The notes beneath the pieces are model-generated. The model saw nothing but the letters and a program-made list of their open reading frames with translations, searched no databases and was not told the origin of the DNA. Made by a program: the position numbers and the translations under genes. Shown one piece after another: positions 40,524 to 63,969 of a stretch of 64,000 bases of DNA (the stretch's first letter is position 1; every line of letters begins with the position of its first letter). This DNA is from a virus. The stretch is from positions 62,001 to 126,000 of IMG/VR virus record IMGVR_UViG_3300042987_001940. One strand, 5' to 3'.

Positions 40524-41411
40524 TTAATCTGCTTTTGCTAGACCTTTGAAGTAGTCCAAATCTTCATCTTCTTCGGATGCAAGATTAACACTTGATGTTG
40601 CTTTAAAAGGAACGTCAATACTTTCTGCAACATCTTCGGCTTTGCTCTTGACTGGCATACCATCAAAACCCAATGCTTTATCAAGTCTAGCACGAATCTG
40701 GTCATAGGATTTAAATTTAGATGGGTCAGTAAACTCTTTCAACGAGTGTTCTGATTTCCAAATCTTTTCCAATTCAGCATCATCATTTTTCAAAGGACCA
40801 ACTGCATCAAACTCACTTTTATCATAATTACGATAACCCTCAACATTACGAATCTTCACTTTGAAGTTTGCACCAGTCCACAAGTCAAACGGATTCAAAG
40901 GCGTTTCATCAGCAAATTCAGGATTCATTGCTTCGGTAATCTTATCAAAGATTTTCTTACCGAACTTGAACAATTTAACTTGTCCTTCGTTTTCTTTATT
41001 TGCTGGGTCTGAAACGATGTAGATATTTGCAACGTAATTCAATTTACGTTTTTGTTTGCGAACGATATCTTTGTTTGCTTCGATACCAGAATTCCACAAA
41101 GTAGAATTATGTTCACAAACAGGACACTTACCATTTACGGTAGTCAAACAGTTATCAATCAACCAACCACCAGGACCTTGAAAGCCATGACCAAAGATAC
41201 GAACCCATGGAAGTGCATCATCACCATCATCTGCTGCTGCGGGAAGAAACCGAATGATTGCCATTCCGTTTCCTGCTTTATCTACTGTGGGAGTCCAAAA
41301 ACGATTATCATCTTTTGAACCACCTTCAGATTGATTCTTTGATGATTCGATTGCTTTGGCTAGTTTTTCTAGGGAACTTGCGTTGCGTTTGAGATTTGCG
41401 AAACTGCTCAT
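40524..41411 (-). CDS. 32: Single-stranded DNA-binding protein gp32
   Basis: 295 aa (T4 gp32 301 aa). N-terminal cooperativity region (FANLKRNASSLEKLAKAIES), then RFWTPTVDKAGNGMAIIRFL and ALPWVRIFGHGFQGPGGWLI; zinc ligands in CLTTVNGKCPVCEHN; KRKLNYVANIYIVSDPANKE and GANFKVKIRNVEGYRNYDKS complete the OB fold. The acidic C-tail (LASEEDEDLDYFKGLAKAD) binds partners such as gp59 and polymerase. Strong ribosome site (AAGGAAATAAT). Own promoter (41472-41500) and terminator (40479-40505), so it is transcribed as a single gene as well as by readthrough. Confidence 0.95.
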   Translation of the reverse strand: MSSFANLKRNASSLEKLAKAIESSKNQSEGGSKDDNRFWTPTVDKAGNGMAIIRFLPAAADDGDDALPWVRIFGHGFQGPGGWLIDNCLTTVNGKCPVCEHNSTLWNSGIEANKDIVRKQKRKLNYVANIYIVSDPANKENEGQVKLFKFGKKIFDKITEAMNPEFADETPLNPFDLWTGANFKVKIRNVEGYRNYDKSEFDAVGPLKNDDAELEKIWKSEHSLKEFTDPSKFKSYDQIRARLDKALGFDGMPVKSKAEDVAESIDVPFKATSSVNLASEEDEDLDYFKGLAKAD

Positions 41412-41500: not shown

Positions 41501-41963
41501 GAATATATTTCAAAGAATCGATAGTTTTACCGATATCCTGATGATGTATTCCAATACCGCCTGCTTCATTAAAATCATCAATAATAGACTGTGTATCATC
41601 AATCAGAATATTTTCAGGACTAGCATATACTTTCTTATAACCTTTTCCCGGAACAATATTAGGATAATAATTGATATCATGATTTAAAAGCCACAATTCT
41701 TTTTGTGCTTTAACATATTCATGATAATCACTACCACCTGATGAAGATAGTATTTCAATTTTTACTGGATAAAACTCAATAAAGTCCAGTAACACTCTAG
41801 CACCAGGCATCCATTCCAAAGTTTCAAATTGTTTTGTTTGAATGAAGTTTGGCCAATTGTTACGAAAATTATTCTTAGTTTTTTTACCATAAAGTTCTTC
41901 GTATCTTTTATCAAAATTACAAAGAACTCCATCCATATCCAAATATATTTTCTTAATTAACAT
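41487..41963 (-). CDS. HAD-family 5'(3')-nucleotidase-like phosphatase
   Basis: 158 aa. Motif I YLDMDGVLCNF has the nucleophile DxD; motif II EILSSSG; a distal Lys in GKGYKKVY; motif IV ILIDDTQSIIDDF. This is the order in 5'(3')-deoxyribonucleotidases and related phage phosphatases. It may dephosphorylate dNMPs or a repair intermediate. It overlaps the 3' end of gp59 by 11 bp and comes just before gp32, so it belongs to the replication operon. Confidence 0.72.
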   Translation of the reverse strand: MLIKKIYLDMDGVLCNFDKRYEELYGKKTKNNFRNNWPNFIQTKQFETLEWMPGARVLLDFIEFYPVKIEILSSSGGSDYHEYVKAQKELWLLNHDINYYPNIVPGKGYKKVYASPENILIDDTQSIIDDFNEAGGIGIHHQDIGKTIDSLKYILDVD

Positions 41964-42555
41964 TTAGAACATTCCTCAATATTTCTTTACATTTATCTAA
42001 ATCTGCATGAATAAAAGGTGTATATTTCAAAGCAGTCATCCTGAATTGTGGCCAATGAATCGTATCATTTATTTTCTTTGTCCACATAGGAACAAAATTC
42101 AATAGTCTGTTCAATATGCAAAAAGTTTCAAGACAAATATCTTTATGTAAAGCAGTTCTTAATAAAGTTGGATACTCACCATTTCCAATCAAAAGATGTT
42201 CATTTGGGTCAATAGAATTACCAAACAATGTTTCACAATCATTTTTAAATGTATAACTTAATGACTGAATTATCTTTTCATGTTTTTTGCAATGAATTTC
42301 AGCTTGTTCATCCAAAAGACTACCTGCCCAAGTTTTACTATCCTCAATCATATTATATACGATAAAATCAGTCAATGCTTTTTTATCTTTATATTTCCTA
42401 GATAGTTTATAGAAAAAATATTTGTCTTTTCTATTTTCAAACGATGTCACACTTATGTTTGTTTTTCCATTATACTTGAAAAAATCAAACTGTTCGGTAG
42501 TAAAATGTAACTTTAGTGCTTGATATAAACCAAACGCTTCATAACCAGTAATCAT
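41953..42555 (-). CDS. 59: Helicase loader gp59
   Basis: 200 aa (T4 gp59 217 aa). The segment ENRKDKYFFYKLSRKYKDKK matches the T4 gp59 motif (kRrDKYFFqKLSeKYK). AFGLYQALKLHFT, LETFCILNRLLNFV and the C-terminal basic region are also in the right order. gp59 loads gp41 helicase onto gp32-covered forks. The T4 order 33-59-32 is preserved, with the HAD gene inserted between 59 and 32. Confidence 0.8.
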   Translation of the reverse strand: MITGYEAFGLYQALKLHFTTEQFDFFKYNGKTNISVTSFENRKDKYFFYKLSRKYKDKKALTDFIVYNMIEDSKTWAGSLLDEQAEIHCKKHEKIIQSLSYTFKNDCETLFGNSIDPNEHLLIGNGEYPTLLRTALHKDICLETFCILNRLLNFVPMWTKKINDTIHWPQFRMTALKYTPFIHADLDKCKEILRNVLNVN

Positions 42556-45054: not shown

Positions 45055-45201
45055 TTACTTCTTTGCTGCGTCTTTTTTCGCTTCTTCTTTCTTAGCTTCA
45101 GCCTTAGGTGCTTCTTTCTTGGCTTCGTCTTTCTTAGGTGCATCAGCAGCGAAAACACTTGCAGCGAACAACATTGCGAAAATTGTAGTAATAAATTTCA
45201 T
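45055..45201 (-). CDS. Small secreted Lys/Ala/Glu-rich protein
   Basis: 48 aa. A signal peptide (KFITTIFAMLFAASVFAADA; likely cleavage after VFA) is followed by a charged low-complexity tail of KKDEAKKEAPKAEAKKEE type. It has an excellent ribosome site (AAGGAG, 7 nt before the ATG). It stands between the tmRNA coding piece and a strong terminator. The mature peptide would be a ~30-aa highly charged, probably helical periplasmic peptide. No known family; a role at the envelope is a guess. Confidence 0.65.
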   Translation of the reverse strand: MKFITTIFAMLFAASVFAADAPKKDEAKKEAPKAEAKKEEAKKDAAKK

Positions 45202-45225
45202 TTGATTCTCCTTAGTTAATAAAGT

Positions 45226-45540
45226 GGTAACTGATTCTGTTACTAGGACAGTTACCGAAACCCTAAGCAGTTTTTAGGCTGCTAATTTATAAACGCTTTC
45301 GTTTGCATTTATTAGTTTTGCTTGATTTACGGTCATCGCCTACCGTGCTGTCTGTTCCGTTACTCCTTGCCCTGTCGAAACCGGTCGTCCCCCTCAAAAA
45401 CATTCTAGTAGCCATTCAGGTTCACTTTTTTCTGTTACCCGCTTCCACGAACTAGAATCGTATATCCACTCAAGGATACTTTTCTTGCTTATGTTTTTGG
45501 TGGAGACGGTGGGAATCGAACCCACGTCCAGAACACCTTT
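45226..45540 (-). ncRNA. ssrA: Circularly permuted (two-piece) tmRNA
   Basis: In transcription order (high to low coordinate) the acceptor piece comes first: ~45540-45498 with T-arm (GTGGG TTCGATT CCCAC), 3' acceptor strand CGTCTCC, A, and encoded CCA. A ~105-nt intervening loop follows, containing AAAAACAT/ATGTTTTT and ATTCTAGT/ACTAGAAT pairings. Then the coding piece starts at 45392 with GGGGACGACCGGTTTCGACA, the hallmark tmRNA 5' end. GGGGACG pairs with CGTCTCC (7 bp, one G-U); GGAACA pairs with TGTTCT for P2. The tag frame 45306-45274 encodes ANESVYKLAA and stop. A hairpin around the stop (AGCAG/CTGCT) and an 8-bp stem (45226-45256) follow. This piece order is diagnostic for permuted tmRNA, known from alphaproteobacteria, some cyanobacteria and some betaproteobacteria. 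3' end of the coding piece is approximate. Confidence 0.92.
45274..45306 (-). other. tmRNA tag-peptide reading frame (ANESVYKLAA)
   Basis: Codons GCA AAC GAA AGC GTT TAT AAA TTA GCA GCC TAA. The AN start and LAA end are the classic features of SsrA tags recognised by ClpXP/ClpAP, with the resume codon GCA after an A-rich stretch. Read inside the tmRNA coding piece. Confidence 0.9.
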
Positions 45541-45549
45541 TACTTCACT

Positions 45550-46218
45550 TCATACAGCAATAAAATTGTTAATGTATTTATTTAATTCGTCTAAGTAATC
45601 TTTTTTCTTACGTTCAAATACTTGTGGAATCTCTTCCTCTGTTGCAATAAGAACTACTATATCATCAATACTGCGTCCTGTCAACTCCTCAAACATTTCC
45701 GAATATGCTGTGCATTGCATGAAGTAATTAAGTATATAACTCTCGTCCTTCATTTTCGTTGACGACTTATAATCAATTACCGATAATTTACCTTTCCATT
45801 CGGCAATACAATCAACACGACCAGCAATTCTTAATTTTGTGCTATAAAGTGCCTGCTCTTGACAATAGATATCACCCACATTTTCATCAATATATTTCTT
45901 CAATTGACGAAACATCATTTTGTCAAACGGCATCATTGAACGTTGTCTTAATTCGGTCAAAAATCCGTTCACATAATCTTCACACAATTTATGCAATCGC
46001 GTCCCTCTGCGACCTGCACGTTTTGTTATTTTATTGGCTTCCTCTTCACCAACAATATTACGCCATTCTTGAATACCTTCTTTGCTATATGAAGATAATA
46101 TTGTTGTTACTGATGGATATCTTTCACCATTAGGACAAACATAAACACGACCCGTATCTGTTGTTATCGCTTCAAGGTCAAAATCTAATTCAGGTAAGTT
46201 TACAAAATTGAACATCAA
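45550..46218 (-). CDS. PD-(D/E)xK RecB-like nuclease
   Basis: 222 aa. PSVTTILSSYSKEGIQEWRN with GTRLHKLCEDYVNG resembles the RecB-type exonuclease family of T4-like marine phages. The catalytic strand-turn-strand GRVDCIAEWKGKLSVIDYKS has D at GRVD and the D..xK pair IDYKSS. It may process recombination or concatemer ends. The stop is about 10 bp before the tmRNA acceptor piece, so transcript processing is needed to release the tmRNA. Overlaps the next gene by four bases. Confidence 0.75.
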   Translation of the reverse strand: MMFNFVNLPELDFDLEAITTDTGRVYVCPNGERYPSVTTILSSYSKEGIQEWRNIVGEEEANKITKRAGRRGTRLHKLCEDYVNGFLTELRQRSMMPFDKMMFRQLKKYIDENVGDIYCQEQALYSTKLRIAGRVDCIAEWKGKLSVIDYKSSTKMKDESYILNYFMQCTAYSEMFEELTGRSIDDIVVLIATEEEIPQVFERKKKDYLDELNKYINNFIAV

Positions 46219-57364: not shown

Positions 57365-57442
57365 TGGCGCGGCTGGAGGGATTCGAACCCCCGACCTGAC
57401 GGGTAGAAGCCGTCTGCACTAAATCCACTGTGCTACAGCCGC
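57363..57442 (-). tRNA. tRNA-Arg (anticodon UCU)
   Basis: Cloverleaf with acceptor GCGGCTG/CAGCCGC, anticodon loop CTTCTAC (UCU), T-loop TTCGAAT and encoded CCA. Decodes AGA/AGG. Last tRNA of the array in transcription direction. Its 3' end overlaps the late promoter element by two bases. Confidence 0.93.
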
Positions 57443-57457
57443 CTAATTAGGATTATT

Positions 57458-57534
57458 TGGTGCCTCAGGCGGGAGTCGAACCCGCAAAATTCTGATTTTG
57501 AGTCAGACACGTATGCCAATTCCGTCACCGAGGC
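57458..57534 (-). tRNA. tRNA-Leu (anticodon CAA), short variable arm
   Basis: Acceptor GCCTCGG/CTGAGGC, anticodon loop CTCAAAA (CAA), T-arm GCGGG TTCGACT CCCGC, CCA encoded. Leu tRNAs normally carry a long variable arm, but here only ATTTT separates anticodon stem and T stem. Its class II-type D-arm (ACGGAATTGGCATACGT) is retained. Decodes UUG. Confidence 0.85.
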
Positions 57535-57539
57535 AAATC

Positions 57540-57616
57540 TGGTGGGCCCACTAGGACTTGAACCTAGAGTCAACAAATTATGAGTTTGCTGCTTTAACCA
57601 ATTAAGCTATGGGCCC
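57540..57616 (-). tRNA. tRNA with CAU anticodon (Ile2 or elongator Met)
   Basis: Acceptor GGGCCCA/TGGGCCC, loop CTCATAA (CAU), T-loop TTCAAGT, CCA encoded. The body resembles tRNA-Ile2, whose CAU becomes lysidine-modified to read AUA (GTTCAAGTCC T-arm), but Met elongator cannot be excluded. One of three CAU tRNAs in the array. Confidence 0.88.
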
Positions 57617-57622
57617 AATCCC

Positions 57623-58159
57623 TTATTGTGTAGATTTCAAATAATCTAACAAAGATTCAGGACTACTTTTATCATAAGGGTCTGAACCATAGTTATCTTC
57701 ACGACCATCTTCAACAAAGAGTTTTTCACGAACCATGTCAGTTAAAATAGCAGCATAACGATGGCTACGCATACCAAATCCAATTTTACTCTTACTAACA
57801 AGCATACCCATCAACCGAGTAAAATCACCATTACCATCAGGCAACATTTTAACTTTCTTAATACCCAATTGTTGTGCCCATGCATTCATTACAAAAGCAT
57901 CATTAACACTAATACAATAAATTTCATCAATACCCAAAGCTTTAAATTCATCATACATAGATTCAAAACCAGGTAATTGATAAGTGCTACATGTTGGTGT
58001 AAAAGCACCAGGTAAACTAAAAATAATTACACGCTTACCACCAAAAAGTTCTTGACTGGTTTTTTCAACAAATTTTCCACCAATAGGACAAGTTCCCTCT
58101 TGTGGAGCAACATCACCTTCACGACACATAAAAGTTACATTAGGTGCATAATATGGCAT
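57623..58159 (-). CDS. Peroxiredoxin (Prx5-type)
   Basis: 178 aa. VIIFSLPGAFTPTCSTYQLP has the peroxidatic Cys in the PGAFTPTCS motif. EIYCISVNDAFVMNAWAQQL and the C-terminal SDPYDKSSPESLLDYL complete a Prx5/AhpE-like protein. It reduces peroxides with a thiol partner. It lies between tRNAs, 7 bp from tRNA(CAU) and ~20 bp from tRNA-Leu, so transcription is shared with them. Similar genes occur in marine T4-like phages, where they may protect against oxidative stress in infected cells (inference). Confidence 0.82.
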   Translation of the reverse strand: MPYYAPNVTFMCREGDVAPQEGTCPIGGKFVEKTSQELFGGKRVIIFSLPGAFTPTCSTYQLPGFESMYDEFKALGIDEIYCISVNDAFVMNAWAQQLGIKKVKMLPDGNGDFTRLMGMLVSKSKIGFGMRSHRYAAILTDMVREKLFVEDGREDNYGSDPYDKSSPESLLDYLKSTQ

Positions 58160-58179
58160 ATTCTATCTCCTTAAAATTT

Positions 58180-58262
58180 TGGTGCGAGAGGCGGGAATCG
58201 AACCCGCAAGCCGAAGCGAGGCATTTTAAGTGCCTTGTGTTTGCCTATTTCACCACTCTCGC
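58180..58262 (-). tRNA. tRNA-Leu (anticodon UAA)
   Basis: Acceptor GCGAGAG/CTCTCGC, loop CTTAAAA (UAA), variable arm CGCTTCGGCTT with a GC-TTCG-GC hairpin, T-arm GCGGG TTCGATT CCCGC, CCA encoded. Has a normal class II variable arm, in contrast to the two short-arm Leu tRNAs. Transcribed from the promoter at 58275-58303. Confidence 0.93.
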
Positions 58263-58274
58263 ATTCATAAAAAC

Positions 58275-58303
58275 ATTATACAGACAATTAATTTATTTGT
58301 CAA
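58275..58303 (-). promoter_or_regulatory. Perfect sigma70 promoter for tRNA-Leu(UAA) unit
   Basis: -35 TTGACA (58298-58303), 17-bp spacer, -10 TATAAT (58275-58280). About 12 bp from -10 to the tRNA 5' end. It overlaps the 3' end of an HNH-gene remnant. Confidence 0.82.
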
Positions 58304-58496
58304 TAGATTTCTTGCTTTTATTTCTTCCTCTGTAAGTGCTTGTTTGTGAATGACAATTTGGACAAATTATTCTTAAATTATCCAAATGATTATTATACTT
58401 ATTACCATCTATGTGGTCCAATTCAAAAGATAATTTTTTACCTAACCAATTATCAATACGACATATTTCACAATATATTTTTACAGCGGTAGGTCG
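58293..58496 (-). pseudogene. 5'-truncated HNH homing endonuclease remnant
   Basis: An open frame without a usable start codon encodes YCEICRIDNWLGKKLSFELD, HIDGNKYNNHLDNLRIICPN and CHSQTSTYRGRN: a complete HNH core (CxxC ... LDHIDG ... NLR ... CPNCH). An in-frame stop at 58497 cuts off the N-terminus, and only the sequence RPTAVKI precedes the core. It looks like a decayed homing endonuclease gene inside the tRNA array. A promoter is embedded in its last codons. Confidence 0.65.
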
Positions 58497-58499
58497 TTA

Positions 58500-58581
58500 G
58501 CCTACGATAAGGACTTATTGCGCGATGCCTTATTAGCTTGCCCAAAGGCGTTTATAACTAACACTTGTCAACGCTGTATTC
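58500..58581 (-). other. Structured spacer between tRNA-Phe and the HNH remnant
   Basis: The spacer can form three small hairpins in series on the minus strand: GCGTT/AACGC, GCCTT/AAGGC and GTAGG/CCTAC (loop CTAACGA). No gene, promoter or terminator recognised. May help tRNA processing or be the remains of the lost 5' part of the HNH gene. Confidence 0.35.
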
Positions 58582-58657
58582 TGGTGCAACCTCGTGGAGT
58601 TGAACCACGTTCCGACGCTCTTCAGGCGCCCGCTATGACCGCATCAGCTAAGGTTGC
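58582..58657 (-). tRNA. tRNA-Phe (anticodon GAA)
   Basis: Acceptor GCAACCT/AGGTTGC, loop CTGAAGA (GAA), T-arm CGTGG TTCAACT CCACG, CCA encoded. Reads UUC/UUU. Confidence 0.93.
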
Positions 58658-58662
58658 AAAAC

Positions 58663-58736
58663 TGGTGCTGCTACCAAGAATCGAACTTGGGATACAACTT
58701 TACCAAAGTTGTGGTATGCCATTTACCTATAGCAGC
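58663..58736 (-). tRNA. tRNA-Thr (anticodon GGU)
   Basis: Acceptor GCTGCTA/TAGCAGC, loop TTGGTAA (GGU), T-arm CCAAG TTCGATT CTTGG, CCA encoded. Reads ACC/ACU. A second Thr tRNA (UGU) is at 61831. Confidence 0.93.
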
Positions 58737-58741
58737 AAAAC

Positions 58742-58816
58742 TGGTACCTCGAAACGGGATCGAACCGCTGACCTTCTCCTTGTAAGGGAGTTACTCTACC
58801 GCTGAGTTATCGAGGC
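58742..58816 (-). tRNA. tRNA-Val (anticodon UAC)
   Basis: Acceptor GCCTCGA/TCGAGGT with a G-U first pair, loop CTTACAA (UAC), T-loop TTCGATC, CCA encoded. Its 5' 26 nt overlap the 3' end of the metallophosphoesterase gene, whose stop codon is in the D-arm. Confidence 0.92.
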
Positions 58817-59321
58817 TTTGTTCTTTTATTCTTTTCATAACATCTTCGAACAGAATGGGTTTAAAATCAGTCTGTTCAACACAAACACAATGATACCAAG
58901 GGTCATTTATTTTTCTTGCGTGAAGATGACCATGAATGTTTCCAACAAATCTTCCTTTACTATCAGGATGAACTGGTATATGACTAAGTATAAAATTGTT
59001 CATGACATGATACCCACGAACATCACGAAAATATTCTGTGTATTCATTTAATCTGAATATATCGTGATTACCTTTTATTAATACTTTATCACCGTTTAAT
59101 CTTGATAATGTTTTTAATGCTTTACGATTAATAACAACATCACCAAGATGATAAACTTTGTCTGTTGGCTTTACTGTTTCGTTCCAACGCTTAATCATTT
59201 CTTCATCCATATCCGCTGGATTATCCCACGGACGAAGTTTTGTTATTCCATCTTCTCTTAAAAATTGACATACACCGCGATGACCGAAGTGTGTGTCTGA
59301 AACTAAAAATACGCTTGGCAT
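58791..59321 (-). CDS. Calcineurin-like metallophosphoesterase
   Basis: 176 aa. The metal-binding motifs are in order: SDTHFGH, LGDVV, KGNHD, LSHIPVH and NIHGHLH. This matches small phage metallophosphoesterases. The substrate could be a nucleotide or nucleic acid. The last nine codons and the stop lie inside the 5' part of tRNA-Val, so RNase P processing would destroy the mRNA end. Upstream is tRNA-His. Confidence 0.82.
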   Translation of the reverse strand: MPSVFLVSDTHFGHRGVCQFLREDGITKLRPWDNPADMDEEMIKRWNETVKPTDKVYHLGDVVINRKALKTLSRLNGDKVLIKGNHDIFRLNEYTEYFRDVRGYHVMNNFILSHIPVHPDSKGRFVGNIHGHLHARKINDPWYHCVCVEQTDFKPILFEDVMKRIKEQSLDNSAVE

Positions 59322-59334
59322 AATATTCTTTCTT

Positions 59335-59410
59335 TGGGGTGACTAGAGAGGATTGAACTCTCACTACCTGGTTCACAGCCAAGTATGCAGACCACTACAT
59401 TATAGCCACC
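59335..59410 (-). tRNA. tRNA-His (anticodon GUG) with encoded G-1
   Basis: The 5' end has the extra G (59410) that pairs with C73 (59338). Acceptor GTGGCTA/TAGTCAC, loop CTGTGAA (GUG), T-arm TTCAATC, CCA encoded. The G-1:C73 pair is the His identity element. Confidence 0.92.
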
Positions 59411-59411
59411 A

Positions 59412-59525
59412 TTAATCTTTTCTATAAAATTTTGCTTGTTTTTCTCGTCCGTCTTGGAATCCTTTTTTATATGTGAAGATTCCTATTAGACTTCCTAAGA
59501 TAAAACCTAAAATAAATTTTCTCAT
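59412..59525 (-). CDS. Small membrane protein
   Basis: 37 aa with one membrane segment (KFILGFILGSLIGIFTY) and a charged tail (KKGFQDGREKQAKFYRKD). It lies exactly between tRNA-Arg(CCU) and tRNA-His, ending one base from the tRNA-His 5' end. No ribosome site is visible because the tRNA 3' end is directly upstream, so translation is uncertain. Confidence 0.4.
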   Translation of the reverse strand: MRKFILGFILGSLIGIFTYKKGFQDGREKQAKFYRKD

Positions 59526-59530
59526 AATAT

Positions 59531-59606
59531 TGGTACCCCCGACAGGATTCAAACCTGTGACTTTCTCGTTAGGACCGAGACACTCTGTTCGCTGAGTTAC
59601 GGGGGT
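59531..59606 (-). tRNA. tRNA-Arg (anticodon CCU) with A19-U56 covariation
   Basis: Acceptor ACCCCCG/CGGGGGT, loop GTCCTAA (CCU), CCA encoded. The T-loop is TTTGAAT, so C56 is U, and the D-loop AGCGAACA has A at position 19, so the tertiary pair G19-C56 becomes A19-U56. Decodes AGG. Confidence 0.88.
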
Positions 59607-59607
59607 A

Positions 59608-60150
59608 TTATTTTTTACGAACTATTAATGTTTCGTAAGTGTATAATTGAAAACGATTTTCTTTCTTTTTCAAATCTAATTCATCTAAATCCAAATAATC
59701 ATGTTTATAATATTGACGATAAGAATCAAAAAGATACAATCTGTTTTGTTTTAAATTTACTTTTGTTGCTACAGTCCAATGATGAAGTGGCTCACCGACT
59801 GAAATTATTGCAACACTATTTTTACCATCAATTTCTTCGTTTAAACAAGAAATGTATTCATATGCATCTTCAAAATCATCATCTTGATATAAAACTTTAA
59901 AATTTATATCAGAAAAACCTCTTTCATAATTTACAACATGTTTCATCAAATCTACAACATTTTCAAAATATGTGCCTTCAATATACATCTTATGAAATGA
60001 GCGAGGCTTAGTCTTTACCAAATTTCTCAACAGCTTTTCAGCTTTTGTTGGAGATAAATCTGGTTTAAGATAATACAAAGCATTTATGATGGAATAAAAT
60101 CCACACATTCCATCAAGAATACCTTGCTGATATGCTTCACGTTTTTTCAT
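59608..60150 (-). CDS. Papain-fold (C39-like) cysteine hydrolase-like protein
   Basis: 180 aa. GILDGMCGFYSIINALYYLK has a Gln/Asp-Gly-x-Cys-Gly catalytic-cysteine helix (C16); SVGEPLHHWTVATKV supplies the His; LYLFDSYRQYY the Asp. This Cys-His-Asp order is that of papain-like C39/transglutaminase proteins. It could be a protease or amidase on a host target; no leader-peptide substrate or transporter is nearby. It stops two bases before tRNA-Arg(CCU). Confidence 0.55.
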   Translation of the reverse strand: MKKREAYQQGILDGMCGFYSIINALYYLKPDLSPTKAEKLLRNLVKTKPRSFHKMYIEGTYFENVVDLMKHVVNYERGFSDINFKVLYQDDDFEDAYEYISCLNEEIDGKNSVAIISVGEPLHHWTVATKVNLKQNRLYLFDSYRQYYKHDYLDLDELDLKKKENRFQLYTYETLIVRKK

Positions 60151-60287
60151 TCGTTAAACGATTTCTCTTTTAAATCATTTTTAATATCACTAATTCTTTT
60201 TCTGCGCTTTGAATTGCCCAACCAACGAAGTTTGGTGCAAATCGTGCATCTTACATTTCTTTTAGATTTTTTTCTCTTATAATTCAT
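60147..60287 (-). CDS. Small basic CxxC protein
   Basis: 46 aa: highly basic N-terminus (NYKRKKSKRNVRCTICTKLR) with one CxxC. It overlaps the following gene by ATGA, strong evidence that both are translated. The start follows the tRNA-Gly(UCC) 3' end by four bases, so there is little leader. May bind RNA or zinc; function unknown. Confidence 0.5.
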   Translation of the reverse strand: MNYKRKKSKRNVRCTICTKLRWLGNSKRRKRISDIKNDLKEKSFNE

Positions 60288-60291
60288 AAAA

Positions 60292-60365
60292 TGGAGCGGG
60301 ATAGGAGAATCGAACTCCTGTCGTGTGCTTGGAAGGCACTCGTTTTACCATTAAACTAATCCCGC
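60292..60365 (-). tRNA. tRNA-Gly (anticodon UCC)
   Basis: Acceptor GCGGGAT/ATCCCGC, loop CTTCCAA (UCC), T-loop TTCGATT, CCA encoded, U73. Directly downstream of a perfect promoter with nearly no leader. Confidence 0.94.
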
Positions 60366-60373
60366 ATTTTAAA

Positions 60374-60402
60374 ATTATACTACATTAATCGTTATTTGTC
60401 AA
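60374..60402 (-). promoter_or_regulatory. Perfect sigma70 promoter for tRNA-Gly(UCC)
   Basis: -35 TTGACA (60397-60402), 17-bp spacer, -10 TATAAT (60374-60379). The -10 ends 8 bp from the tRNA 5' end, so transcription starts almost at the mature end. It lies between two tRNA-Gly genes, two bases from the CCA of tRNA-Gly(GCC). Confidence 0.84.
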
Positions 60403-60403
60403 G

Positions 60404-60477
60404 TGGTGCGGGCTGAGAGAATCGAACTCTCATCTAATGCTTGGCAAGCACTGATTTTACCACTAAACTAAACCCGC
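60404..60477 (-). tRNA. tRNA-Gly (anticodon GCC)
   Basis: Acceptor GCGGGTT/AGCCCGC with one U-G, loop TTGCCAA (GCC), T-loop TTCGATT, CCA encoded. Similar to the neighbouring tRNA-Gly(UCC), probably an old tandem duplication. Confidence 0.93.
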
Positions 60478-60490
60478 ATACTCTTATATA

Positions 60491-60967
60491 TTATGCAGCA
60501 TATGACAATACATGTTTCAAACGGTCTGCTGCATAACTTGCTGCGAAAGCATTTGGCTTAACAAGAGGAACAACATTACAAGTTCCACGAATATAACCAA
60601 TAGCTTGTTGAACAACACATGAAGAACCATGCATTTCGTTTGGATTAATGTCCAAATGAACTTCGACGTAACGGTCTTCCAACACATCTGCTAAACGATG
60701 GAACATTTCAGATGCCTTGTAAACTTCATTCATCAAACGCATTGCTGGTTTATCTTTACGTTGGTCAAAATCCAATTCACGTGTAGTTTCACCGAAGATT
60801 TTACAACCGTGACAACCATCCAAATGAATAACAATAGCAATTGTGTAATCTGCATACCATTTTCCATTCAATAGAAATCGTTCTGAATCAGCACCAATAT
60901 AAACTTTGGTGCTTTCACTTTGTTTCATCAAAAAATCTTTTACTTCATCTATGTTTAATTTTTGCAT
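60491..60967 (-). CDS. DUF458/YkuK-type RNase H-fold protein
   Basis: 158 aa. VYIGADSERFLLNGKWYADY, TIAIVIHLDG with CKIFGETTRELDFDQRKDKP and HLDINPNEMHGSSCVVQQAI, then VKPNAFAASYAADRLKHV. These match the DUF458 (YkuK) family, which adopts an RNase H-like fold with conserved Asp residues (GADSE, HLDIN). Function unknown, perhaps a nuclease on RNA. It lies between tRNA-Gly and tRNA-Trp. Ribosome site AAGAGGTGTAATC. Confidence 0.7.
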   Translation of the reverse strand: MQKLNIDEVKDFLMKQSESTKVYIGADSERFLLNGKWYADYTIAIVIHLDGCHGCKIFGETTRELDFDQRKDKPAMRLMNEVYKASEMFHRLADVLEDRYVEVHLDINPNEMHGSSCVVQQAIGYIRGTCNVVPLVKPNAFAASYAADRLKHVLSYAA

Positions 60968-60991
60968 GATTACACCTCTTGTTAATAAAAA

Positions 60992-61066
60992 TGGCGACCA
61001 CGTAGGGAATTGAACCCCATCCGCACGGTTTTGGAGACCGGCATGCTACCGTAACACCTCGCAGTC
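60992..61066 (-). tRNA. tRNA-Trp (anticodon CCA)
   Basis: Acceptor GACTGCG/CGTGGTC with two wobbles, loop CTCCAAA (CCA), T-arm TGGGG TTCAATT CCCTA, G73, CCA encoded. Confidence 0.9.
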
Positions 61067-61072
61067 ATATAT

Positions 61073-61146
61073 TGGTGCTTCGAACAAGAATCGAACTTGT
61101 GATAGCCGGTTATCAGCCGACCGTTATACCATTTAACTATCGAAGC
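61073..61146 (-). tRNA. tRNA-Ile (anticodon GAU)
   Basis: Acceptor GCTTCGA/TCGAAGC, loop CTGATAA (GAU), T-arm ACAAG TTCGATT CTTGT, CCA encoded. Reads AUC/AUU. Confidence 0.94.
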
Positions 61147-61151
61147 ATTAC

Positions 61152-61227
61152 TGGTGGATAGTAGTGGAGTTAAACCACTCTAAACTGCCTTATGAGAGCA
61201 GCGCCTCAATCGCTCAGCCAACTATCC
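61152..61227 (-). tRNA. tRNA with CAU anticodon and A19-U56 covariation
   Basis: Acceptor GGATAGT/ACTATCC, loop CTCATAA (CAU), CCA encoded. The D-arm resembles Ser/class II tRNAs (GCTGAGCGATTGA), with A19; the T-loop TTTAACT has U56, restoring the pair. Met elongator or Ile2; the sequence does not decide. Confidence 0.85.
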
Positions 61228-61233
61228 GAAATT

Positions 61234-61310
61234 TGGTGCCCCAGGTGGGAGTCGAACCCACAAAATTTGGCTTCTAAGACCAACACGTATGCCAGTTCCG
61301 TCACCGGGGC
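61234..61310 (-). tRNA. tRNA-Leu (anticodon UAG), short variable arm
   Basis: Acceptor GCCCCGG/CTGGGGC, loop CTTAGAA (UAG), variable region only ATTTT, T-arm GTGGG TTCGACT CCCAC, CCA encoded. D-arm nearly identical to tRNA-Leu(CAA) at 57458, so the two are paralogues. Confidence 0.86.
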
Positions 61311-61509
61311 TTTATGCTCTGACATTCTTCGGCGGTAATTTAGTGTATGCATCAGGTTTTTAACCCCTCACTACACCCTCCACCCGCTCCACGACAAGAA
61401 CCGTTCTCGCATTGCCAGCGCCAGTTCGGTAGGACTGGAACCACCCTTGGGAAATCATCCCACTTCTCATCGTCTGGGTAAGACTAGCCGTTGATTAGAC
61501 GGCACGTTC
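61311..61509 (-). other. GC-rich structured spacer of unknown role
   Basis: 199 nt between tRNA-Leu(UAG) and tRNA-Asn, clearly richer in G+C than the phage background. On the minus strand it can form consecutive hairpins: GCCGT/ACGGC (loop CTAATCA), GTCT/AGAC, TGGGA/TCCCA, CCAGT/ACTGG and TAGTG/CACTA. No open frame or known RNA family recognised. It is not a tRNA. Could be a novel structured ncRNA or processing module. Confidence 0.45.
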
Positions 61510-61588
61510 TGGCTCCCCATCAAGGAATCGAACCTTGCTAGTCAGTGATTAACAGTCACGTCCGTGCACCTTGCTCGGATTATGAGGA
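61510..61588 (-). tRNA. tRNA-Asn (anticodon GUU)
   Basis: Acceptor TCCTCAT/ATGGGGA with a U-G, loop CTGTTAA (GUU), D-arm TCCG/CGGA with GG in the loop, T-arm CAAGG TTCGATT CCTTG, G73, CCA encoded. Position 8 is A rather than the nearly universal U. Confidence 0.85.
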
Positions 61589-61659
61589 ATAATCTGTGAA
61601 TGATTTTTTTCATTTTAACTTAGGCTAACATTCAATCCCTAAGATTAGTTGCAACATAT

Positions 61660-61738
61660 TGGCACCCCATGAGAGAATCGAACTCCCGACCTAGTGGTCC
61701 GTAGCCACTCGTTCTTAAATCCACTGAACTAATGGGGT
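61660..61738 (-). tRNA. tRNA-Arg (anticodon ACG)
   Basis: Acceptor ACCCCAT/ATGGGGT, loop CTACGGA (ACG, presumably edited to ICG by host TadA), T-arm GGGAG TTCGATT CTCTC, G73, CCA encoded. Third Arg isoacceptor of the array. Confidence 0.93.
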
Positions 61739-61745
61739 ATTATAT

Positions 61746-61822
61746 TGGTCCGAGTGGAGAGATTCGAACTCCCGACCTTATGCTCCCAAAGCATCTGCGC
61801 TACCAGACTGCGCTACACTCGG
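61746..61822 (-). tRNA. tRNA-Pro (anticodon UGG)
   Basis: Acceptor CCGAGTG/CACTCGG, loop TTTGGGA (UGG), D-loop with GTCTGGTAG, T-arm GGGAG TTCGAAT CTCTC, CCA encoded. Could read all four Pro codons. Confidence 0.94.
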
Positions 61823-61830
61823 TTAAAACT

Positions 61831-61905
61831 TGGTGCCCCGTGGGTGAATCGAACACCCGAATTCGGATTACAAAACCGACGTTTTACCACTAGAACTAAC
61901 AGGGC
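61831..61905 (-). tRNA. tRNA-Thr (anticodon UGU)
   Basis: Acceptor GCCCTGT/ACGGGGC, loop TTTGTAA (UGU), T-arm GGGTG TTCGATT CACCC, CCA encoded. Stem base 31-39 is a U-U mismatch. Confidence 0.91.
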
Positions 61906-61912
61906 TTAAAAC

Positions 61913-61989
61913 TGGTTGCGGGAAACAGGAGTTGAACCTGATGTCTTTGGCTTATGAGACCAACGTGGAAACCGTTTCACCCTCCCGCA
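61913..61989 (-). tRNA. tRNA with CAU anticodon, initiator-like 3' end
   Basis: Acceptor TGCGGGA/TCCCGCA, loop CTCATAA (CAU), 3' end CGCA-ACCA as in initiator tRNAs but with a U1-A72 pair. The three G-C pairs of the initiator anticodon stem are not all present (GGT/GCC), so elongator Met is possible. T stem has one U-U mismatch. CCA encoded. Confidence 0.85.
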
Positions 61990-61996
61990 ATAAATC

Positions 61997-62070
61997 TGGT
62001 GGAGACTAAGGGAGTCGAACCCTTGTGAATAGCTTGCAAAGCTACCGTAATCCCGTTATACGAAGTCCCC
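61997..62070 (-). tRNA. tRNA-Ala (anticodon UGC)
   Basis: Acceptor GGGGACT/AGTCTCC with G3-U70, the Ala identity wobble, loop TTTGCAA (UGC), T-arm AAGGG TTCGACT CCCTT, CCA encoded. Confidence 0.95.
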
Positions 62071-62086
62071 GTATTATTATATATCT

Positions 62087-62178
62087 TGGTGCGTGAAGAA
62101 GGATTCGAACCTCCAATGTTTACCCTGTGGGAACAGATTTACAGTCTGTTGCAGAACCACCGTCTCTGCCGTTCACGC
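62087..62178 (-). tRNA. tRNA-Tyr (anticodon GUA)
   Basis: Acceptor GCGTGAA/TTCACGC, loop CTGTAAA (GUA), long class II variable arm (TCCCACAGGGTAAACATT), T-arm GGAGG TTCGAAT CCTTC, CCA encoded. Confidence 0.94.
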
Positions 62179-62185
62179 ATTATAT

Positions 62186-62259
62186 TGGCGCCCCCAAGGG
62201 GAATCGAACCCCTGACGCTAGGTAGACAGCCCAGCAGGTTACCATTACAACATGGAGGC
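62186..62259 (-). tRNA. tRNA-Asp (anticodon GUC)
   Basis: Acceptor GCCTCCA/TGGGGGC with a U-G, loop CTGTCTA (GUC), T-arm AGGGG TTCGATT CCCCT, G73, CCA encoded. Confidence 0.92.
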
Positions 62260-62266
62260 AAAATCT

Positions 62267-62340
62267 TGGTAGGAGCACAGAGAATCGAACTCTGGTTGAT
62301 GGATTAAAAGTCCACTGTATTACCACTATACTATACTCCC
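62267..62340 (-). tRNA. tRNA-Lys (anticodon UUU)
   Basis: Acceptor GGGAGTA/TGCTCCT with G1-U72 and U6-G67, loop CTTTTAA (UUU), T-arm CAGAG TTCGATT CTCTG, CCA encoded. Its 5' leader is set by the hammerhead cleavage site 8 nt upstream. Confidence 0.93.
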
Positions 62341-62344
62341 ATAT

Positions 62345-62428
62345 CTTTTACAACAAGGGGGATGTCCGGAGCATCAACCGCGACTTGTTGTTTCGTTCTC
62401 TATTGTCAGGCGAGAACTCATCAGAAAG
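62345..62428 (-). ncRNA. Type I hammerhead self-cleaving ribozyme
   Basis: All conserved core positions are present on the minus strand: stem I CTTT/AAAG (62425-62428 and 62345-62348), CTGATGA (62418-62424), stem II GTTCTC/GAGAAC (62412-62417 and 62395-62400; loop 11 nt), GAAA (62391-62394), stem III CAACAAG/CTTGTTG (62384-62390 and 62351-62357) with a 26-nt apical region, and the cleavage triplet GUA. Cleavage falls between 62349 and 62348 and leaves an 8-nt leader before tRNA-Lys. Stem I is short (4 bp), as in open type I forms. The stem III loop contains a further hairpin GATG-CTCCGGA-CATC. Confidence 0.85.
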
Positions 62429-62439
62429 TAGCCTAATTA

Positions 62440-62564
62440 CCATATTGAAACACACTACACTATTTAAATGTTTTGTTAGCTATCACTGGCCAGTTTATAT
62501 CTAACTTCCACATTCTACCAAGTATTAACGTTTATACTCGGGCTTGCAATGCGCTTCAATATGG
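62440..62564 (-). repeat. Inverted-repeat spacer element A
   Basis: Bounded by CCATATTGAAACACACT (62440-62456) and TTCAATATGG (62555-62564), the latter ending in the CCA of the tRNA-like RNA. The interior (~98 nt) has no coding. One of three elements with the same ends (B 62701-62791, C 63810-63896). Confidence 0.75.
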
Positions 62565-62698
62565 TCACAAGTAGATGGGAATCGAACCCATATCTCTCAC
62601 TCCACCGAGGTCGGGCGGCCGCCCGACTGCTCTGCACGAGTGAGCGCATGTCCGGGCGCTTACCTCGAGGATCACACCACGCTCATGCTGCCACCTGT
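62562..62698 (-). ncRNA. tRNA-like RNA with GC-rich insert (137 nt)
   Basis: The 3' part is tRNA-like: T-arm ATGGG TTCGATT CCCAT, then CTACTTGT, GA and CCA. Its 5' end ACAGGTGG (62691-62698) pairs with CTACTTGT to give an 8-bp acceptor-type stem. Between lie ~100 nt, very GC-rich, with stems TGAGCG/CGCTCA, AGCGC/GCGCT and CTCACT/AGTGAG, and a perfect 16-nt palindrome at 62611-62626. No normal D-arm or anticodon arm is found. The neighbouring repeats abut both ends. May be a degenerate or novel tRNA-like RNA. Confidence 0.55.
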
Positions 62699-62700
62699 TA

Positions 62701-62791
62701 CCATATTGAAACACACTCTACGCTCGGGTTTTGAAGCGGCCATTGGCATTCTACGAGAGTTTCATTCTAACAAGAATGTATTTCAATATGG
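62701..62791 (-). repeat. Inverted-repeat spacer element B
   Basis: Arms CCATATTGAAACACACT (62701-62717) and TTCAATATGG (62782-62791); the second arm contains the CCA of tRNA-Gln. Interior 64 nt with no coding. Confidence 0.75.
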
Positions 62792-62864
62792 TGGGGGATA
62801 CTGGATTCGAACCAGTGCATGACGGAATCAAAATCCGTTGCCTTACCAGCTTGGCTAATCCCCT
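62789..62864 (-). tRNA. tRNA-Gln (anticodon UUG)
   Basis: Acceptor AGGGGAT/ATCCCCC with a weak 1-72 pair (typical for Gln), D-arm GCCAAGCTGGTAAGGC, loop TTTTGAT (UUG), T-arm ACTGG TTCGAAT CCAGT, CCA encoded. Preceded by a boxA-like leader and promoter. Confidence 0.9.
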
Positions 62865-62890
62865 ACAAATAATCCTAATTTTTAAAGAAC
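62865..62890 (-). promoter_or_regulatory. boxA-like antitermination leader, copy 1
   Basis: A 26-bp sequence identical to 63970-63995. On the minus strand it begins GTTCTTTAAAAATT (62890 to 62877), very like the boxA of bacterial rRNA leaders (family type TGCTCTTTAACA; betaproteobacterial forms GTTCTTTAAAAATT). It lies between promoter and tRNA-Gln, the usual position of boxA. Likely binds NusB-S10 to prevent termination across the array (inference). Confidence 0.6.
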
Positions 62891-62908
62891 AATCAATCTA
62901 TGTAAATC

Positions 62909-62936
62909 ATTATACTCTTTTTACGTCATTTGTCAA
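62909..62936 (-). promoter_or_regulatory. Sigma70 promoter for the tRNA-Gln unit (TTGACA-16-TATAAT)
   Basis: -35 TTGACA (62931-62936), 16-bp spacer, -10 TATAAT (62909-62914). Transcription would start ~12 nt before the boxA-like leader and 38 nt before tRNA-Gln. Confidence 0.78.
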
Positions 62937-62966
62937 GCATTTTCTTTTACTTCTAAAACAACAACT

Positions 62967-63044
62967 TGGAAGTAGGAGTGGGATTCGAACCCACGATTTT
63001 ACCGTTTTGCAGACGGTTGCTTTTGTCCACTCAGCCATCCCACT
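62967..63044 (-). tRNA. tRNA-Cys (anticodon GCA)
   Basis: Acceptor AGTGGGA/TCCTACT, loop CTGCAAA (GCA), U73 (Cys identity), T-arm GTGGG TTCGAAT CCCAC, CCA encoded. Confidence 0.92.
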
Positions 63045-63053
63045 GTTATTCTA

Positions 63054-63446
63054 TTATTTTTTTATTTCCCATGTATCATTCTTTATTTTTGTTATCATGT
63101 CTGTCCAATGGTCATATTCAGATGTGATTGCATGATGCTCTTGATGACAGTTCAAACATAAGATATCACACTTATCTAATTCTTTATACAATTTTGCTTT
63201 AGCCCATTGTTTATTCCATTTCGGATCCTTTTCATCAGGATTTCTATGATGAAAACATAACGATGATGGATGATTATCGTAACCACATTTAGAACAACGA
63301 AGTCCACCACGCTTCATCATATAATCATAAATTATTTTTAATTTCAATTGGTAAGTTCTTGTTTTCCAACATCTCTTGTGTGCTTTAGGATGCGACGGAT
63401 AAAAATCATCAACTAAATCAAAATTACAGTAAATACATTTTTTCAT
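63054..63446 (-). CDS. HNH endonuclease
   Basis: 130 aa. LRCSKCGYDNHPSSLCFHHR and NPDEKD, then LYKELDKCDILCLNCHQEHH form the HNH core with two CxxC pairs (CSKC, CLNC). N-terminal CIYCNFDLVDDFY adds another zinc knuckle. Likely a homing endonuclease inserted in the tRNA array between tRNA-Cys and the class II-like tRNA. A TATAAATA element lies ~45 bp upstream (63488-63495). Confidence 0.8.
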   Translation of the reverse strand: MKKCIYCNFDLVDDFYPSHPKAHKRCWKTRTYQLKLKIIYDYMMKRGGLRCSKCGYDNHPSSLCFHHRNPDEKDPKWNKQWAKAKLYKELDKCDILCLNCHQEHHAITSEYDHWTDMITKIKNDTWEIKK

Positions 63447-63487
63447 ATTTTATTCCTATCTTAGTGAAAAATAATAAGTATAACTAT

Positions 63488-63495
63488 TATTTATA
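63488..63495 (-). promoter_or_regulatory. Candidate T4-type late promoter (TATAAATA)
   Basis: Exact TATAAATA on the minus strand, 42-49 bp upstream of the HNH ATG at 63446, giving a ~35-nt leader. Sits between the tRNA(UAU) CCA end and the HNH gene, consistent with separate late expression of the endonuclease. Confidence 0.42.
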
Positions 63496-63507
63496 CTAAA
63501 CGAATTT

Positions 63508-63602
63508 TGGTACTTCCCTAGGGATTCGAACCCTACCGTTTCAGCCTATCTGACCAATCTCCAGTGTTTATAAGACACCGCCGCACACCAGTGCTGAGAA
63601 GT
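63508..63602 (-). tRNA. Atypical class II-like tRNA with UAU anticodon
   Basis: Acceptor ACTTCTC/GGGAAGT, loop CTTATAA (UAU), T-arm TAGGG TTCGAAT CCCTA, CCA encoded. The variable region is long (~27 nt with TCAG/CTGA hairpin) and the D-arm is a GCAC-TGGT-GTGC mini-hairpin. UAU would read AUA (Ile), but class II arms belong to Leu, Ser or Tyr. It may be a mischarged, pseudo or repurposed tRNA. Confidence 0.7.
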
Positions 63603-63609
63603 AAAAATC

Positions 63610-63701
63610 TGGCGGAGACTATAGGATTTGAACCTATGGACCAGCTTTCGCCAGCCTAGAGTTTAGCAAACTCCTGCAATCGACCACTCTGCCAAGTCTC
63701 C
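63610..63701 (-). tRNA. tRNA-Ser (anticodon GCU)
   Basis: Acceptor GGAGACT/AGTCTCC, loop TTGCTAA (GCU), long variable arm (GCTGGCGAAAGCTGG), T-arm ATAGG TTCAAAT CCTAT, G73, CCA encoded. Reads AGC/AGU. Confidence 0.94.
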
Positions 63702-63709
63702 TTTATATT

Positions 63710-63801
63710 TGGCGGAAGCGGTGAGATTCGAACTCACGGACCCCTTACGGAGCCGACGGTTTTCAAGACCGTTGCCTTAAACCAGGCTCAGCCACACTTC
63801 C
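63710..63801 (-). tRNA. tRNA-Ser (anticodon UGA)
   Basis: Acceptor GGAAGTG/CGCTTCC, loop CTTGAAA (UGA), long variable arm (GGCTCCGTAAGGGGTCC), T-arm GTGAG TTCGAAT CTCAC, G73, CCA encoded. Confidence 0.94.
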
Positions 63802-63809
63802 TTTGTTCA

Positions 63810-63896
63810 CCATATTGAAACACACTATGTTGACCGACAAGCTATCAACACTGGGCACTTGGATTTACCATGTCTTGCTAATGTGTTTCAATATGG
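63810..63896 (-). repeat. Inverted-repeat spacer element C
   Basis: Perfect 15-bp arms CCATATTGAAACACA (63810-63824) and TGTGTTTCAATATGG (63882-63896). The second arm contains the CCA of tRNA-Glu. Interior 57 nt. Best-preserved of the three elements. Confidence 0.8.
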
Positions 63897-63969
63897 CGTC
63901 CTGTAGGGGATTCGAACCCGCTCTGGTCACCTTGAAAGGGTGATGACCTCACCAGAAGTCAAACAGGAC
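63894..63969 (-). tRNA. tRNA-Glu (anticodon UUC)
   Basis: Acceptor GTCCTGT/ACAGGAC, loop CTTTCAA (UUC), T-loop TTCGAAT with one C-C mismatch in the T stem, G73, CCA encoded. Preceded by the second boxA-like leader. Confidence 0.9.

Follow-up and report, generated by a model that had tools for sequence, protein, structure and literature searches.

Two-piece tmRNAs make up 53 of the 133 distinct phage tmRNAs reported by Buchholz et al. (2022, PMC9004378), 50 of the 53 being marine or aquatic, and in the methylophage Melnitz the tmRNA gene lies upstream of the gene for the late-transcription coactivator (PMC9004378). In Rfam, the formerly separate permuted models (alpha, beta and cyano) have been merged into one, RF04321 (PMC11915505). 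Permuted tmRNAs of phages have thus been reported previously and are common in environmental phages. The locus described here lies in a 64,000-nucleotide stretch of viral DNA (the window), which comprises positions 62001-126000 of a virus record of 133,148 bp, a single metagenomic contig of 33% G+C without an end repeat. A preliminary description of the window had considered a permuted tmRNA unusual on a T4-like phage; this view was not upheld, given the 53 published two-piece phage tmRNAs, that of Melnitz at a homologous place among them, and well over a hundred in IMG/VR. The window tmRNA is real, but ordinary for its phage group.

Analysis with the Rfam models and ARAGORN placed a circularly permuted tmRNA gene on the minus strand, at about 45226-45559 of the window. 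The tmRNA_permuted model (RF04321, cut-off 47 bits) matched over its full length (model positions 1-213) at 45274-45559 (-) with a score of 140.5 bits (E 1.5e-27), and the beta_tmRNA model (RF01850, cut-off 84 bits) matched at 45220-45598 (-) with 116.3 bits (E 1e-34), the terminal part of this second model fitting the window tmRNA poorly. With lower-scoring clan matches removed, RF01850 outscored the alpha and cyano models at the locus, making beta, and neither alpha nor cyano, the best older subtype. ARAGORN called a tmRNA* (permuted) with the tag ANESVYKLAA at the same locus. These matches bear out the permuted tmRNA of the preliminary description, which had proposed a check against the Rfam models and had named an uninterrupted one-piece order as evidence that would count against it; the opposite was found, as the nearest relatives, on contigs L057 and L388, have the same permuted order of elements and the same tag. 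The sequence features of RF04321 membership that were checked were all present, namely a score above the cut-off, a 3′ half that comes first with CCA and a spacer, an acceptor stem with G3-U70, and a proteolysis-type tag. Judged from its sequence, the locus is apparently a genuine and intact ribosome-rescue RNA gene in circularly permuted form. A second, overlapping ARAGORN call at 45498-45700 (tag ERKKKDYLDELNKYINNFIAV) was rejected as spurious, as it corresponds to the end of the neighbouring exonuclease gene.

Read 5′ to 3′ along the minus strand, the gene begins with the tRNA-like 3′ piece (45498-45559), which contains the P2-side strand, the T-arm, the 3′ acceptor strand CGTCTCC, an A and the CCA end, as delineated by the RF04321 alignment and ARAGORN. 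The precise 5′ end of this piece is approximate; a start at 45540, as originally proposed, is about 20 bases short because the pairing of GCTGT (45558-45554) with ACAGC falls outside it, and the gene starts at about 45559 or further upstream. The 105-nt intervening segment that follows (45393-45497) is predicted to be removed, based on its lack of conservation relative to L057, the helix controls described below and the fold, and its ends close a helix, AAAACAT/ATGTTTT, that also forms in the arm's minimum-energy fold (z -3.75). Of the two loop-closing pairings proposed earlier, the closing helix is present, but the two are not independent, sharing two bases and being nearly stacked. The mRNA-like piece starts with the 5′ acceptor strand GGGGACG (45386-45392), which pairs with the 3′ strand of the first piece at 7/7 positions, including the G3-U70 alanine identity pair. 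It continues with the tmRNA 5′ signature GGTTTCGACAGGG, the D-loop analogue (45370-45382; identified in the sequence and in the RF04321 alignment), the tag frame GCA AAC GAA AGC GTT TAT AAA TTA GCA GCC TAA, encoding ANESVYKLAA* according to ARAGORN (45274-45306), and a 3′-terminal hairpin GGTAACTG...CAGTTACC (45226-45256), predicted by folding and kept in the viral alignment; all of these features are on the minus strand. The order of elements given in the preliminary description (T-arm, 3′ acceptor strand, CCA, a loop of about 105 nt, 5′ signature, tag) and its 7-bp acceptor stem were therefore correct, with the CCA ending at 45498 and the signature piece running from 45392.

Comparison of the window with L057 showed 57/60 identical positions in the tRNA-like piece (95.0%) and 166/172 in the mRNA-like piece (96.5%), whereas the 105-nt spacer was 52.6% identical, no better than shuffled sequence (mean 48.7%), indicating selection on both mature pieces but none on the spacer sequence. 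At the level of sequence, this pattern fits an RNA used as two pieces after removal of its spacer. In 143 viral spacers, the spacer's own ends formed a helix of at least 6 bp in 63% of cases, relative to 18% when ends were swapped between copies and 6% after shuffling, indicating that the closing helix is kept as a structure in most viral copies. Among 142 distinct viral copies, acceptor position 3 was G-U in 141, and acceptor positions 4-6 and the T-stem carried compensatory changes, copies having been retained only if their acceptor stem paired well, which biases the percentage paired and affects the variety of pair types less. Tags ended in AA in 132 of these 142 copies. Eight viral permuted tmRNAs (L291, L301, L305, L310, L312, L327, L356 and L362) were given ARAGORN tags of 20-30 residues relative to the usual 10, and some of them share an FTGNTV or KFWQ stretch ahead of the normal ending.

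The record encodes a gp20 portal, a gp23-type capsid protein, a gp18 sheath, a gp43-type polymerase, gp32, gp33 and gp59, and is T4-like by this gene content. Marine cyanophages, the nearest cultured phages on the basis of the portal protein, share 55% identity with it, indicating that the record represents a distant branch. Upstream of the tmRNA lies a PD-(D/E)XK exonuclease gene (phrog_298; 45550-46218, minus strand) that is part of the conserved setting, and downstream, on the same strand, are genes for a gp32-like single-strand DNA-binding protein (40524-41411) and, with synteny as evidence, a T4 gp59-like helicase loader (41953-42555) and a T4 gp33-like late-transcription coactivator (PF16805; 42552-42776). 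A consensus scan located a candidate sigma-70 promoter, TTGACA-17-TATAGT (11/12 matches, the second hexamer being preceded by TG), within the exonuclease gene (45656-45684, minus strand), and a promoter-like match of at least 11/12 occurred just upstream of the tmRNA in 17% of relatives versus 0.6% in shuffles; from such promoter-like sites we infer that the tmRNA is expressed. The RF04321 match runs into the exonuclease gene, covering its final codons and stop (45550-45559), and an RNA cut there would cost the exonuclease mRNA its stop codon; the overlap is not conserved, as the two genes lie apart in L057.

Right after the tmRNA, behind AAGGAG, is a 48-aa open reading frame (45055-45201) whose product starts like a signal peptide and is otherwise rich in Lys, Ala and Glu, and other short signal-peptide-like reading frames occupy the same place in L048, L071, L137, L158, L013 and L218. 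Matches of the region to a Listeria phage were located in this Lys/Ala-rich downstream frame, not in the tmRNA, and a megablast of the region returned nothing beyond short gp32 matches in Synechococcus phages. About 30 tRNA genes lie at 57365-63969 (-), two of which were found by the covariance model alone (CAT anticodon, 61917-61988; TTC (Glu), 63897-63969); with these two included, the tRNAs of the record appear to represent every one of the 20 amino acids. Within the array lies a gene for a redoxin/AhpC-type protein (PF08534; 57623-58159).

In order to assess how common such genes are among phages, IMG/VR was scanned twice for the tmRNA 5′ signature preceded by CCA, yielding at least 240 loci; ARAGORN called a permuted tmRNA in 144 of 240 loci among the matches listed. 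An exact 28-base motif from the mRNA-like piece of the window gave 120 loci among the matches listed, 95 of them called permuted and 0 standard. Of the 225 loci with a called permuted tmRNA among the matches listed, Melnitz included, 152 shared one or more neighbour genes with the window, the most frequent shared neighbours being the cell-wall hydrolase, the exonuclease, gp59, gp33 and gp32, which indicates that the permuted tmRNA is a resident of the T4-like neighbourhood.

Trees were built with cyanobacterial permuted tmRNAs left out, and the window clustered with viral copies, apart from the sampled bacterial ones. In the careful tree, it fell in a supported set of 39 rows (support 96/81) consisting of the window, 37 viral rows and one contig from a metagenome bin. 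This last contig (L250, bacterium UBP17_UBA6191) carries a permuted tmRNA within the viral clade and may be phage sequence in the bin. No cultured phage matching the mRNA-like piece well was found in the collection searched, a search that may omit near-identical records. On sequence grounds, the window tmRNA belongs to a beta-type clade that is viral almost throughout and for which that collection yielded no cultured phage. Neither monophyly of the viral rows (p-AU 0.28) nor monophyly of the bacterial beta rows (p-AU 0.62) was rejected, and as p-AU ranged from 0.135 to 0.62 over every grouping tried, the trees do not settle the direction of transfer between phage and bacteria. Of 399 Burkholderiales genomes, 21 had a permuted gene scoring above the cut-off, about 16 with strong scores. 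The bacterial long-spacer permuted tmRNA pattern occurred in only 7 genome contigs, two of the four genomes tested being above the cut-off and L250 being the one that clusters with viruses. It is conceivable, but rather doubtful, that a separate beta-type lineage with enlarged spacers has been passed on, mostly vertically, within uncultured aquatic T4-like phages, and that this lineage could be the source of the scattered permuted tmRNAs of Betaproteobacteria, not the reverse.

The window very probably carries a functional permuted tmRNA, a resident gene of an uncultured T4-like phage, that performs trans-translation with host factors. A single precursor would be transcribed, its promoter probably lying within the exonuclease gene or farther upstream, and from the anatomy and the behaviour of bacterial permuted tmRNAs the 105-nt spacer would be excised by host RNase P and 3′-processing enzymes, leaving tRNA-like and mRNA-like pieces that would pair through the acceptor stem and P2. 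With G3-U70 present, the RNA should be charged by host AlaRS, and host SmpB would bring it to stalled ribosomes, the partner being assigned to the host because the record encodes no SmpB; a gene for it was not found in the 133-kb record, although, for a single contig without an end repeat, absence from the whole phage is not certain. The ribosome would then switch to the phage tag, and the LAA end should send the product to host ClpXP. The likely benefit would be that ribosomes are kept usable and broken proteins recycled while host mRNA and translation are disrupted, and such a role in ribosome rescue or recycling is a reasonable inference.

An RNA that is made and processed but does not complete trans-translation, acting instead as a decoy by sequestering host SmpB, AlaRS or ribosomes, has a precedent in the tag-less tmRNA-like RNA of phage DS6A (PMC11915505), and inhibition of endogenous tmRNA by a tmRNA-related phage RNA is reported (cited in PMC11915505); the lack of an SmpB gene in the record would suit this role as well. 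A decoy needs no tag, however, whereas the tag frame of the window is intact, with an Ala start and an LAA end, and AA endings prevail among the viral copies, making this explanation improbable. Recent capture from a host, or a remnant left by integration at host ssrA, with no role in the phage, is somewhat less probable again: tmRNA genes are common integration sites, such an origin has been discussed for Melnitz (PMC9004378), and some Burkholderiales genomes hold beta-type relatives, one with the exact 28-nt core motif, but the same T4-like neighbourhood recurs across many contigs, the window sits inside the well-supported viral clade (96/81), and the conservation of the mature pieces does not extend to the spacer.

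A false call, whether through chance resemblance or through misassembly of a one-piece gene into the permuted order, can be practically dismissed: the E-values lie between 1e-27 and 1e-34, both order and tag recur in L057 and L388, and the order recurs in over a hundred contigs; no support for it was found, though ARAGORN does give one spurious overlapping call (45498-45700).

With the window tmRNA, the known phage permuted tmRNAs gain a beta-type clade for which no cultured member turned up in the phage collection searched, and the permuted tmRNA emerges as a standing feature of the T4-like neighbourhood rather than an oddity. Its conserved pieces and free spacer provide a natural data set for the spacer features needed in processing, and if the viral clade were older than the bacterial one, this would bear on the spread of permuted tmRNA between bacterial lineages.

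Among named systems, the Methylophilales phage Melnitz (MZ577097, gene 86) likewise has a permuted two-piece gene in a marine phage with T4-like genes, and in its deposited record the tmRNA lies, as in the window, between a PD-(D/E)XK nuclease gene and the gp33, gp59 and ssDNA-binding genes. The Melnitz tmRNA groups on the alphaproteobacterial side, whereas that of the window belongs to the beta-type viral clade; its tag is ANDNYVPVDYALAA as opposed to ANESVYKLAA, and it is reported with a glutamine riboswitch (PMC9004378), for which the window gave no match. The cultured Stenotrophomonas and Xanthomonas phages Marzo, DLP6 and X1 have permuted ARAGORN calls and a T-arm piece about 77-80% identical to that of the window, but their tags differ, they have no match to the window mRNA-like piece, and the Marzo tmRNA is located inside a tRNA array. 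The betaproteobacterial permuted tmRNA (RF01850) is the best older Rfam subtype for the window at 116.3 bits, and three Burkholderiales genomes carry the window core motif GGTAGGCGATGACCGTAAATCAAGCAAA with 0-2 mismatches, one having the exact 28-nt motif. Bacterial spacers are mostly 26-40 nt, whereas the viral spacers of the motif-based set have a median of 81 nt and that of the window measures 105 nt.
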